From positions 1-58,350 of the forward strand of contig QHYK01000058.1 in assembly GCA_003224085.1 (NCBI GenBank): a stretch of 58,350 nucleotides of DNA, in the 5' to 3' direction. A program made the translations under genes and the position numbers. This DNA comes from Acidobacteriota bacterium. Its GTDB lineage: Bacteria > Acidobacteriota > Terriglobia > Acidiferrales > UBA7541. The stretch's first letter is position 1. Each line of letters begins with the position of its first letter. Below, piece by piece: positions 14,129 to 16,717 of the stretch. The notes below the pieces were generated by a model. That model searched no databases. It had not been told where the DNA came from and was given only the letters and a program-made list of their open reading frames with translations.

Positions 14129-15268
14129 TTACCTAACGGCTGGTTCCGCGACTTCCGCCGCTCTTTTTGCCGGGCGGTGCTTCAGGAATCCGCGCGCTGC
14201 CAGCAATTCCGCATTCAAGAGCGCCGCGCCCGCTGCCCCGCGTACCAGGTTGTGCGACAGCAGCGTGAGCTTTACGTCATGCAGCGGGCATTCCCGGATC
14301 CGCCCGACCACCGCCGCCATACCTTCTCCGGCTTCCACGTCGCGCCTCGGCTGCGGACGGTTTTCTTCGTCCACCACGACCACGGGATGCCGCAATGCCG
14401 TTGGCAACGAAGCAAGCTCTTCGTCCACTTCAAACGTTCGCAGAGCTTCGCGGACCTCATCGAGGGAAGCAATTTTTTTCAGCCCCAAGGACACGCATTC
14501 CAGGTGCCCATCGAGCACCGGAACCCGATTGCAGTGCGCGCTGATGCCCAATCCCGCTTCGACAAATCGCCTCCCGTCCCACTTGCCCAGCAGCTTTTGT
14601 GGTTCCGCCTCCATCTTTTCCTCTTCGCCGCTGATGAACGGCACCACGTTCGCTTGAATATCCATCGAAGCTACGCCCGGATAGCCTGCGCCGGAAATAG
14701 CCTGCAACGTCACCACAAAAATTTTCTCCAGCCCGAACGCGTCCACGAGCGGCTTCAGCACCAGAACCAATCCCGCCGTCGAGCAATTTGGGTTAGTCAC
14801 GATGAATCCGGTGTCGTAACCGCGGTTCTTCTGTTGCATCGGAATCGCCTCCAAGTGGGAGGCATTTACCTCTGGAATCAACAGCGGCACGTCCGCATCC
14901 ATCCGATGGTTGCTCGAATTGCTGACCACCGGATAACCCGCCCGTGCAAAATCCTCTTCCACCGGCCCGGCTACGGAAGAATCCAGCGCCGAAAAAACAA
15001 AGTCGCATTCGAGCGCCGGCTCCACGCCTTTCACCACCAGTTCTCGCCCCACCCTGGGAATCGGCGTCTCCAGGTGCCAGCGAACCGCTTCGGCAAAGGT
15101 TCTCCCCGAGGACCGTTCCGACGCCGCAACTTCGGTCAACTCGAACCACGGGTGTTCGGCAAGCAGGTTCACCAGTCGCTGCCCGACGATGCCGGTTGCG
15201 CCCAGCACTCCGGCCCGCCATTTCTTCTCCACCTTCTTCACCCGCTTCTTTTGCTCGCCTGGCTCCAT
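14129..15268 (-). CDS. asd: Aspartate-semialdehyde dehydrogenase
   Basis: A protein of about 379 residues that reduces aspartyl phosphate to aspartate semialdehyde with NADPH, the second step toward lysine, diaminopimelate, threonine and methionine. The NADP motif GATGIVGQRLV lies near the N-terminus, the active-site Cys is in NPNCSTAGLVL, and GAGYPGVASMDIQANVVPF and the late CNRVPVLDGH match the archaeal/fungal-type branch of the family. The start at 15268 is preceded by GGGAGG nine bases upstream. The open frame continues to 15397 inside lysC but without support. It follows lysC by 32 bases in the same direction, so it is in the operon controlled by the leader at 16405-16582. Confidence 0.95.
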   Translation of the reverse strand: MEPGEQKKRVKKVEKKWRAGVLGATGIVGQRLVNLLAEHPWFELTEVAASERSSGRTFAEAVRWHLETPIPRVGRELVVKGVEPALECDFVFSALDSSVAGPVEEDFARAGYPVVSNSSNHRMDADVPLLIPEVNASHLEAIPMQQKNRGYDTGFIVTNPNCSTAGLVLVLKPLVDAFGLEKIFVVTLQAISGAGYPGVASMDIQANVVPFISGEEEKMEAEPQKLLGKWDGRRFVEAGLGISAHCNRVPVLDGHLECVSLGLKKIASLDEVREALRTFEVDEELASLPTALRHPVVVVDEENRPQPRRDVEAGEGMAAVVGRIRECPLHDVKLTLLSHNLVRGAAGAALLNAELLAARGFLKHRPAKRAAEVAEPAVR

Positions 15269-15300
15269 TTCCTCATTCCTCCCATCTTGAATTTGCGAGC

Positions 15301-16344
15301 TCACACGGCACCTCCGGAGGGAAGCGCGCTGGAGCATTCGCTTGCAGGCCCAATCCGCGTGCCGCGCGCTTGCGGGTTGAACGTATTGCGTACCCACACC
15401 ACCATTTCACTTTCCGCGGCTAGCGGGAGCACTTTGGGGTGCAGCACTTTCGCACCGCCGGCAGCGAGCGCATGCGCTTCCTCGTAACTCAATTCATGGA
15501 GCAGCCGCGCTTCGGCCGACTCTTGCGGATTCGCCGTATAAATGCCGTCCACGTCGGTCCAGATCACCAGCTCATCGGCATCCACCACCTGCGCAACGAT
15601 CGCGCCTGAAAAATCTGAACTATTGCGGCCCAGCGTGGTAATCCGCCCATCCGGAGTAGCGCCGATGAAGCCGGTCACTACCGGCACGGTCCCCTCTTTC
15701 AGCAGCGGCAGAAGAATTTTGCGCCCGCGCAACTTGCTTTGTTCCAGGTGCGGCTGGGCATCGCGAAACGTATCGCAGGTCAGGACAAATTCCGACGAAG
15801 TCACCGGCACGGACGCAACCTCCAGCTTTTCCAGGGCCGCCGCGAAGAGCCGGGCACTGAACCGTTCGCCAAAAGAAGCCAGCCGGTCGGAAAACTCGGC
15901 CCTGTTCGTGCTCTGCCTCCAGCCCGCCACTTCATGCAGCAGGTCGTGTTCGAGCAATTGCAATTCATGACGCACGCGGCGGTCGCTCTCTTCGTCGAGC
16001 CGCAGGTTCTCGAGCACTTCCAGATGCATCTCCAGGACCACTTCCGCTTCCCGCCGCGCGTAAGGCACCTTGCCCGCTGCCAGCGCCTTCTCAATGGTCA
16101 GCAGATGGTCGGTTACGCCTTTCATGGCGGAAACCACCACGACCACTTTCGATTTCTGAGCCGCTTCCCGCACCAGCCGCGCTGCGTGGAGCATGCGCTC
16201 CGCCCCCAGCAGGGAGCTGCCGCCAAACTTGAAAGCCACTACCTTGCTGCATCTCTTACCGTCCCCGCCGCTCCAAAGCGCCGCGCCTGGCTGTGCGGCG
16301 GGGCGCCGTTCGGCTGCTTCTTCTGGCACGTTTTCCTGGTTCAT
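15301..16344 (-). CDS. lysC: Aspartate kinase catalytic domain without ACT domains
   Basis: A 347-residue protein that phosphorylates aspartate, the first committed step of the aspartate family. The nucleotide motif KFGGSS is near residue 38. Later come the substrate-binding TLGRNSSDFSGA and DVDGIYTANP, and the last catalytic-domain block KVLHPKVLPLAAE to VRNTFNP. Normal aspartate kinases continue with two ACT domains (about 120 more residues) that bind lysine or threonine; here the protein stops about 15 residues after the kinase domain. Feedback inhibition through ACT domains should therefore be absent. The 30-residue N-terminal extension rich in Ala, Glu and Pro precedes the fold. The first gene of the lysC-asd operon, it sits 60 bases after an attenuator terminator. 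Confidence 0.92.
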   Translation of the reverse strand: MNQENVPEEAAERRPAAQPGAALWSGGDGKRCSKVVAFKFGGSSLLGAERMLHAARLVREAAQKSKVVVVVSAMKGVTDHLLTIEKALAAGKVPYARREAEVVLEMHLEVLENLRLDEESDRRVRHELQLLEHDLLHEVAGWRQSTNRAEFSDRLASFGERFSARLFAAALEKLEVASVPVTSSEFVLTCDTFRDAQPHLEQSKLRGRKILLPLLKEGTVPVVTGFIGATPDGRITTLGRNSSDFSGAIVAQVVDADELVIWTDVDGIYTANPQESAEARLLHELSYEEAHALAAGGAKVLHPKVLPLAAESEMVVWVRNTFNPQARGTRIGPASECSSALPSGGAV

Positions 16345-16404
16345 GGCCTGCGCTCCCGGTTTCCATTCTCGAGTCCGGCGGCTGGAGCGTCTCTCGCGGA
16401 GGGC

Positions 16405-16451
16405 TCAAAAAACAAAAAACCCACCGCCAGGTTTGCTTCCGGCGGTGGGTT
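16405..16451 (-). terminator. Attenuator terminator upstream of lysC
   Basis: On the minus strand AACCCACCGCC (16451-16441) pairs perfectly with GGCGGTGGGTT (16428-16418) around a 12-base loop, followed by a run of T broken by one G. It stands between a Thr/Lys-rich leader peptide and the lysC start and would stop transcription before lysC. Its 5' arm is also complementary to 16484-16498 in the leader. Confidence 0.85.
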
Positions 16452-16498
16452 GGAAACTCTTTTCTATCTTGCTAGCTGTTTTTCCCATCGCCGGAAGC
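16435..16498 (-). promoter_or_regulatory. Antiterminator pairing of the lysC leader
   Basis: The leader-peptide segment GCTTCCGGCGATGGG (16498-16484) is complementary at 14 of 15 positions to CCCACCGCCGGAAGC (16449-16435), which contains the 5' arm of the terminator. The two helices exclude each other. The upstream partner begins at the codon right after the last Thr codon, so a ribosome paused in the Thr codons would leave it free, and a ribosome at the stop codon would cover its 3' half. Confidence 0.75.
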
Positions 16499-16582
16499 GG
16501 TAATAGTCTTCTTCATAGTCGTAGTCGAGGTAGTCGACTTGGACGATTTGGAAGTAATTCGCTTCTTGGCGATGGACATCAT
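16472..16582 (-). CDS. Aspartate-family leader peptide (36 residues)
   Basis: A small open frame ATG 16582 to TAG 16472-16474. Of 36 residues, eight are Thr (10, 17, 18, 20-22, 26, 28), seven Lys (6, 7, 12, 15, 24, 25, 34), three Ile and three Met, all aspartate-family amino acids. The core reads SKSTTSTTTMKKTITASG and resembles the thr operon leader of enterobacteria (alternating Thr/Ile, then a Gly-rich end). It is followed after about 20 bases by an intrinsic terminator and contains the upstream half of an antiterminator helix. Its role would be to sense charged tRNA-Thr and tRNA-Lys by ribosome stalling and to set lysC-asd transcription. The SD is weak (GGGGAAAAAGG lies far upstream), and a second ATG at 16579 is possible. 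No homolog is known to me in this phylum. Confidence 0.75.
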   Translation of the reverse strand: MMSIAKKRITSKSSKSTTSTTTMKKTITASGDGKNS

Positions 16583-16717
16583 CACAAACCAGAGCCTACC
16601 ATGCCTTTTTCCCCAAGGAAAGGTATTTTTCGCCGCCCTTTACTCTTAAGTGCGTTCACCTTATGTTTTGCCCTGTATCGTCGCATTTTGCGCTCACAAT
16701 GAGGAGGGACGCGGGGT

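Follow-up and report, generated by a model that had tools for sequence, protein, structure and literature searches.

A predicted threonine-sensing leader-peptide attenuator before lysC-asd in an Acidobacteriota bacterium, one of a wider set of candidate attenuators in the phylum

The lysC-asd operon in the window, the 58,350-nucleotide stretch of Acidobacteriota DNA analysed here, is very probably controlled by a ribosome-mediated transcription attenuator that senses charged tRNA-Thr. This reading rests on sequence comparison, as translation and termination were not measured and there are no expression or reporter data. The leader frame, the four pairing regions, their conservation, the covariation between regions 2 and 3, and a promoter-like box with its position are present in the sequences themselves. 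The attenuation geometry proposed in an earlier note on this DNA is supported, with a Thr-rich frame, a terminator, a covarying antiterminator and a protector all in place, and the leader belongs to a large group found across the phylum rather than being an isolated case. The window forms contig C10 in a genome of 6.8 Mb; within a named collection, the nearest relatives of this genome are Candidatus Acidiferrum typicum and Acidobacteria 'gp2' genomes, class Terriglobia. The features, in the order of transcription, are as follows.

16593 to 16601, minus strand: extended -10 box TGGTAGGCT, the predicted leader promoter, 10 nt from the ATG and 7 nt from an in-frame GTG (16585)
16472 to 16582, minus strand: leader peptide frame MMSIAKKRITSKSSKSTTSTTTMKKTITASGDGKNS, 36 aa, with homologous leaders in relatives
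16560 to 16576, minus strand: region 1 (protector arm) TCCATCGCCAAGAAGCG, codons SIAKKR, paired with region 2 in the full-length fold
16500 to 16558, minus strand: sensor stretch carrying the Thr codons, Thr-rich in 31/31 genus leaders before lysC
16483 to 16499, minus strand: region 2 (antiterminator 5' arm) CGCTTCCGGCGATGGGA, codons for ASGDG, supported by a 2:3 pairing z of -7.9 and by covariation
16435 to 16453, minus strand: region 3 (antiterminator 3' arm, containing the terminator 5' arm), placed by folding and alignment
16418 to 16429, minus strand: region 4 (terminator 3' arm) TGGCGGTGGGTT, with alignment pair 67-92 changed from A-U to G-C in 5 rows
16407 to 16419, minus strand: T-run TTTTTTGTTTTTT of the intrinsic terminator, read from the sequence
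16384 to 16391, minus strand: possible anti-Shine-Dalgarno arm GACGCTCC before lysC, its role inferred
16347 to 16357, minus strand: Shine-Dalgarno region of lysC GGGAGCGCAGG, read from the sequence
15301 to 16344, minus strand: lysC, a 347-aa aspartate kinase with the catalytic domain only (Pfam AA_kinase only; TIGR00657 above cut-off, aligned over 3-288 of 442)
14129 to 15397, minus strand: asd, aspartate-semialdehyde dehydrogenase (Pfam; TIGR00978 above cut-off), start codon not settled

The 36-codon frame described in the earlier note was found as stated on the minus strand from 16582 to 16472, MMSIAKKRITSKSSKSTTSTTTMKKTITASGDGKNS carrying 8 Thr, 7 Lys, 3 Ile and 3 Met in its 36 residues. 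That note had named a lack of conservation of the frame or of its pairing in relatives as grounds for refutation; this was computed and did not refute the leader. In the genus, 34 of 36 genomes carry a Thr-rich leader: in 31 it lies before the ACT-less lysC and in three (G014, G030 and G031, loci L169, L170 and L171) directly before asd, where a family search found only the long paralogous kinase and not the ACT-less lysC. The frame recurs in all 31 genus lysC loci read, and a diverged version is found in both genomes searched of genus g9 (L031 and L113). The leader was not found in G003 (63% complete) or G021 (77% complete) of the 36 genus genomes. At 28 of 33 loci, the gene after lysC is asd-like and in the same orientation; the other five loci end inside or soon after lysC.

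Comparison of the leaders identifies threonine as the conserved sensor, so that the 'Thr/Lys' of the earlier note should read 'Thr'. The threonine half of that claim is upheld, with 6-14 Thr in the 31 genus leaders and 4-5 in the two g9 leaders, while lysine numbers only 1-3 in 24 of the 33. Lysine is not maintained across the leaders and was rejected as the sensor. Summed over all 33, the residues are Thr 283, Ser 234, Ile 112, Lys 100 and Met 83. Leader length within the genus ranges from 30 to 42 aa and the middle is variable; the distance between the region 1 and region 2 motifs takes ten values from 48 to 87 nt and is a multiple of 3 at 31/31 genus loci, although these represent fewer than 31 independent events because the loci are related. 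No synonymous excess was seen in the sensor among 15 equal-length genus leaders, with 121 synonymous vs 620 nonsynonymous codon differences and no third-position concentration (323/416/342 by codon position). Since the sensor changes are mostly nonsynonymous, it is the Thr-rich stretch between two pairing elements that is kept and not the individual residues. Conservation within the leader is highest at its two ends, with KRIT, ASGAWRNS and similar residues strongly kept in the genus, because these ends encode base-pairing regions 1 and 2. A second minus-strand frame over the leader (16590-16464) encodes the Tyr/Asp-rich VDYLDYDYEEDYYRF, has no start codon in the stretch scanned and is probably a by-product of the Thr and Ser codons.

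The pairing order is region 1 (TCCATCGCC..GAAGCG) with region 2 (CGCTTC.GGCGATGGGA), region 2 with region 3, and region 3 with region 4. The terminator and T-run claimed earlier were borne out (stem 16451-16418, T-run 16419-16407), the stem alone folding at -26.0 kcal/mol, as was the 14-of-15 complementarity between 16498-16484 and 16449-16435. Region 1, at 16576-16560, is the protector for region 2 and had been overlooked. The 2:3 pairing exceeded base shuffles of region 2 at 33/33 loci, with z from -3.4 to -7.9. The 1:2 pairing has weaker support than 2:3, since its z against base shuffles runs only from 0.0 to -4.9 over the 33 loci and is weak in some. The compensatory changes that the earlier note had proposed seeking in relatives exist: across 32 distinct rows, both partners are altered in 5 of the 19 antiterminator pairs, a level reached by 0/500 shuffles. 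The terminator has such double changes in 2 of its 12 pairs, which 223/500 shuffles reached, although its 6 cells with a double change were reached by only 2/500. A T-rich tract after the stem is kept in 30/31 genus rows, the exception being L030, which is without a T-run. The stretch between the leader stop codon and region 3 (window 16478-16464, genus consensus AGCTAGCAAGCTAG) is also conserved and sits in the antiterminator loop.

Folding of the two states, also proposed earlier, gave a divided result. The full-length fold forms the terminator at 27/33 loci and a 1:2 pairing of at least 8 positions at 25/33, the window's locus included, the latter being wanting at 8/33. When region 1 is masked but region 4 is there to compete, the equilibrium fold is the antiterminator at only 10/33 loci and the terminator at 23/33, and the window's locus folds as the antiterminator with a longer 3' tail and as the terminator with a shorter one. 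Equilibrium folding is thus ambiguous and was rejected as proof of the antiterminator state. Given that the terminator is favoured at equilibrium, antitermination has to be kinetic, as known attenuators are likewise kinetic switches. Until region 4 has been made, the folding energy of the antiterminator stretch is -25.4 to -39.9 kcal/mol.

From these parts the following sequence of events is inferred. Transcription would start a few nucleotides from the leader start codon, as judged by the promoter position, and a ribosome would load on a near-leaderless mRNA. With ample threonine, the ribosome would reach the UAG at 16474-16472 and cover region 2, leaving the 3:4 terminator to form and the polymerase to stop near 16407. 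When threonine is short, the ribosome would stall in the Thr stretch and disrupt the 1:2 pairing; the freed region 2 would pair with region 3 before region 4 is made, and lysC-asd would be transcribed. Without translation, 1:2 is expected to form, leading to termination.

The start of the leader mRNA was inferred from an extended -10 box. At 31/31 genus loci, a TGnTAnnnT box is separated from the leader start codon by 6-12 nt, the chance rate of the motif being 0.00083 per position in shuffles. At the two g9 loci, a TAnnGT box stands 9 nt ahead of the ATG, and TTGACA another 17 nt upstream of it, so that a -10 box is placed 6-12 nt before the start codon at 33/33 Thr loci. The three loci with a 12-nt gap have an in-frame GTG 6 nt past the box. 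As a rule, transcription starts 7 nt after the -10 box; applied to the box positions, this predicts a 5' UTR of 0-6 nt for the Thr leaders. The poor Shine-Dalgarno sequence of the leader reported in the earlier note is real, as a match of at least 4 nt occurs in only 1/33 Thr leaders, and a conventional Shine-Dalgarno sequence was rejected on this count. It is probably not the weak point it was taken for, with the predicted transcript start 0-6 nt before the start codon: the predicted promoter lies just ahead of the start codon and the mRNA is probably near-leaderless, which would account for the absence. We consider a near-leaderless start quite likely, although the promoter is a consensus match only and no 5' end has been mapped. 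At the other loci described below, a promoter score of at least 8 at 5-14 nt was found in 53/76, compared to a mean of 6.9 in shuffles treated alike, and a Shine-Dalgarno match in 4/76, where 76 is the 80 loci fetched minus L175, L220 and two without a usable start-codon window.

The controlled genes lie close together, the open frame of asd overlapping the end of lysC. The leader stop codon is separated from the lysC ATG (16344) by 127 nt that hold the terminator and the lysC Shine-Dalgarno region. No ACT domain was detected in LysC with Pfam, from which we infer that attenuation may be a main end-product control of the operon. An aspartate kinase paralogue in the same genome (G000:C58, a 502-codon open frame, not tested for ACT domains) showed no such leader, and a leader of this kind was not seen at the 17 loci of long paralogues, a limited control in that several of these genes seem, by eye, to follow another gene of the same operon. 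At one of them (L128), a 22-aa frame with 5 Thr lies, by eye, inside the upstream gene and has no model match.

Other readings of the leader were weighed against this attenuator. The nearest is the same device with a mixed signal, in which Ile, Ser, Met or Lys codons stall the ribosome as well as Thr codons. The E. coli thrL signal is Thr plus Ile, the residues Ser, Ile, Lys and Met are common beside Thr in the 33 leaders, and a leader placed at lysC and asd would make sense for the aspartate family as a whole. The low lysine counts already given speak against this, as does the recurrence of Thr-rich leaders elsewhere, in g9 and at L202, L209, L212 and L276; we regard a mixed signal as unlikely. 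A mainly translational control, with the lysC Shine-Dalgarno sequence concealed in a GCTCC/GGAGC hairpin on which the leader acts, draws on real features, since GCTCC lies upstream of GGAGC in 27/29 genus rows examined and the minimum-energy fold pairs 4-5 nt of the Shine-Dalgarno sequence in 20/30 rows run. The hairpin, however, lies beyond an intrinsic terminator whose T-rich tract is conserved, and it needs no leader, which makes it a very improbable main mechanism. The same pair may still add a second, translational layer to the predicted attenuator by hiding the Shine-Dalgarno sequence.

That the short frame encodes a functional small protein followed by an ordinary leader terminator could be argued from the strong conservation of KRIT and ASGAWRNS, but these residues are the ones encoded by base-pairing regions 1 and 2, the length and middle of the frame vary, and leaders before other genes are alike mainly in the pairing part. 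We find this reading hardly tenable. Least of all do we credit a metabolite-binding riboswitch or T-box with an incidental frame, to which we give almost no weight. Lysine riboswitches precede lysC in other bacteria, and the conserved AGCTAGCAAGCTAG stretch has no assigned role, but no Rfam family was matched at gathering score in the window, and a permissive Rfam list for 16300-16700 contained neither class, its sole amino-acid leader family being His_leader at E 3, far below the cut-off.

The antiterminator-terminator part was used as a probe for further leaders in the class. Covariance model R1, for which the 33 Thr leaders supplied regions 2-4 and only 8 nt of sensor upstream of region 2, matched 123 of 399 class genomes. 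From the matches listed, 80 that do not precede this lysC, including the three leaders before asd, were examined; reverse-strand model matches over the lysC terminator (e.g., L237) were set aside. In the 25 codons before region 2, at least 3 Cys were present at 68 of the 80 loci (background 12.2%), at least 4 at 57 (3.9%) and at least 5 at 45 (1.4%), and at least 6 Thr at 8 (1.4%). Only L161 and L220 fell below both 3 Cys and 5 Thr, and at L161 a short Cys-rich frame does occur, stopping where the match begins or ends. Next genes, identified by similarity to Pfam-named examples, were nitrite/sulfite reductase (23), rhodanese-type sulfurtransferase (21), CysD or CysH (12), asd (5), aspartate kinase (4), solute-binding protein (4), outer-membrane or porin-like protein (4), siroheme-synthase-like (2), TauE-type (2, L223 by Pfam only) and hisG (1), with L180 and L220 unassigned. 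In all, 64/80 loci precede genes connected to sulfur; the connection is certain in part of them and merely likely in the rest, the solute-binding proteins among these. Of the nine loci before asd or aspartate kinase, eight reach 5 Thr or more, the Thr-rich L202, L209 and L212 lying before aspartate kinase; the ninth, L231, precedes an asd-type gene with a short frame that is not Thr-rich. Leaders before other genes have little in common beyond the pairing part. At L229, L204 and L159, Cys-rich leaders precede outer-membrane or porin-like proteins, perhaps for uptake of sulfur compounds, and tRNA genes lie near rhodanese genes with Cys leaders (L164:286-419, L164:729-799 and L166:1826-1890).

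Covariation was also assessed in alignment A4, whose 84 rows omit L175, L215, L220, L221 and L231 from the 80 and include only 9 of the 33 Thr-leader loci. Here, 13/19 antiterminator pairs changed on both sides, with 164 double-changed cells vs 53.9 in shuffles (0/500 as high) and at most 47 when the pairing was slid. This alignment was fitted to the structure, which favours its covariation score.

Model R2, built from these 84 rows, recovered the window's own site (16410-16506) in its genome and pointed to further leaders there. Cys-rich leaders with terminators precede a rhodanese-type sulfurtransferase gene (L233, hit 1501-1608; G000:C54:41369-41476), cysD (L234; G000:C122:52483-52585, minus strand) and a nitrite/sulfite-reductase-type gene (L235; G000:C64:32049-32151). 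A His leader, MERKRTFRAHRHHHHHGHTPRPLRCA, precedes hisG (L238; G000:C117:65403-65497, minus strand), and MKAQRANGYYWHRFTWHPSGWRASL, with Tyr, Trp and Phe codons, precedes a DAHP synthase gene (L239; G000:C45:2838-2923) at an E of only 0.02. A match at C129:64481 before an outer-membrane protein gene was without a clear sensor, and weaker matches in this genome, with E of about 0.1 and above, showed nothing, the last four not having been read.

Across the phylum, R2 matched 85 of 396 genomes at E up to 0.01, and 40 of the matches listed were examined. At least 4 Cys were present at 22 of these 40 loci (background 3.5%), and the next genes included cysH-like (7), cysteine-synthase-like (4), short rhodanese (4), AhpC-type peroxiredoxin (4), nitrite/sulfite reductase (3) and tetrapyrrole methylase (1). 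At other loci the apparent sensor fits the gene behind it: ilvD follows a branched-chain sensor (L266), homoserine dehydrogenase a Thr sensor (L276), an O-acetylhomoserine-sulfhydrylase-like gene a Met sensor (L287 and L273), DAHP synthase a Trp/Tyr sensor (L274), trpE a Trp-Trp sensor (L278) and a class II tRNA-synthetase-like gene an Asn sensor (L279). Those that are neither Thr nor Cys were chosen by eye and are without statistical control. Among the phylum loci examined, L272, L280 and L285 had no convincing sensor, and the leaders before asd-type genes at L283 and L284 are Arg-rich, not Thr-rich. The AhpC-type peroxiredoxin genes (L262 by Pfam; L275, L282 and L288 by similarity) are redox genes behind Cys-rich leaders, that is, behind a cysteine sensor.

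As a control, R2 was run on 77 aspartate-kinase loci, 60 of them nearly all titled as other phyla and 17 of them long-paralogue loci, and gave 3 matches at E up to 1. Two are gammaproteobacterial Thr-rich leaders just before the kinase gene, one from Shewanella fodinae (L089, MMYVSVVITTIITTTTITGVGAG, E 5e-4) and a second (MIITTTTHIEMVVAG, E 0.25); the third (L129, E 8e-12) is acidobacterial and, by eye, before an asd-type gene, with a short frame that is not Thr-rich. R2 thus detects attenuators by their architecture, and a match alone is no proof that the Thr and Cys cores have a common origin. Many Cys leaders do share with the genus Thr consensus CTTCxGGCGCGxGGAG or a near form in region 2 and CCCACCGCCAG in region 3. 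This likeness suggests that the two cores descend from one scaffold, although convergence on a good terminator is open.

Each part of the predicted switch is of a known kind; as far as our searches show, the phylum, the operon with an ACT-less kinase, the size of the set and the range of sensors are new. The likely sensors can be read from sequence, those for Thr and Cys with statistical controls and those for His, aromatic residues, Met, branched-chain residues and Asn as single candidates, and they are likely to offer direct, testable control points for a major soil phylum. They also suggest a route by which an ACT-less aspartate kinase can still be regulated and provide a naturally occurring series of attenuators whose cores are alike while their sensors differ, and leaderless initiation, if true, would be a second entry for the state of translation into the switch. 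Whether Acidobacteriota run much of their amino-acid supply by near-leaderless leader-peptide attenuators, of which at least the Thr and Cys ones in Terriglobia share one portable terminator-antiterminator scaffold with exchanged sensor codons, is in our judgment an evenly balanced proposition.

The predicted leader resembles the thrL leader of gammaproteobacteria, which we take to be Rfam RF00506, in its Thr-rich peptide, an antiterminator formed from the end of the frame, an intrinsic terminator and a position before an aspartate kinase gene. It differs from thrL in preceding lysC-asd with an ACT-less kinase rather than thrABC, in its predicted near-leaderless start and in having no Rfam Thr_leader match. 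Neither RF00506 (Thr_leader) nor the lysine riboswitch nor the T-box matched the window leader, at gathering score or in the permissive list, and no Rfam element at gathering score was found at the leaders examined, only tRNAs elsewhere in three loci. The Thr_leader miss says little because the Shewanella Thr-rich locus is also unmatched at gathering score.

Among the literature matches listed, no Acidobacteriota leader-peptide attenuators with assigned sensors were found; subscription journals were mostly uncovered, and the attenuation survey of Lopatovskaya et al. 2010 may hold some. From the portion of one paper available to us, short leader genes have a spacing peak in Acidobacteria among other groups (PMC4833913). 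In Actinobacteria, RNA-level control by attenuators is described for amino-acid genes, including cysteine genes, which like the window's leader places such control outside Proteobacteria; in the text available, no conserved RNA structures are reported for the actinobacterial threonine and histidine operons, unlike the Thr leader here (PMC1262725). Mycobacterial polycysteine short ORFs, Cys-rich like the Cys leaders here and leaderless as these are predicted to be, answer to cysteine supply (Canestrari 2020, cited in PMC13236596 and PMC9031893); as far as the excerpts of these sources go, the control described there is translational, whereas the Cys leaders here are followed by an intrinsic terminator. 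The closest parallel to the predicted start is the trpL attenuator RNA of Sinorhizobium meliloti, which, according to the part of the report accessible to us, begins with the ATG of the leader frame and combines a leaderless leader peptide with a classical attenuator (PMC7298713). The S. meliloti attenuator is an experimentally studied Trp sensor of an alphaproteobacterium (PMC7298713); the one before lysC-asd is a predicted sensor of Thr with a predicted near-leaderless start.
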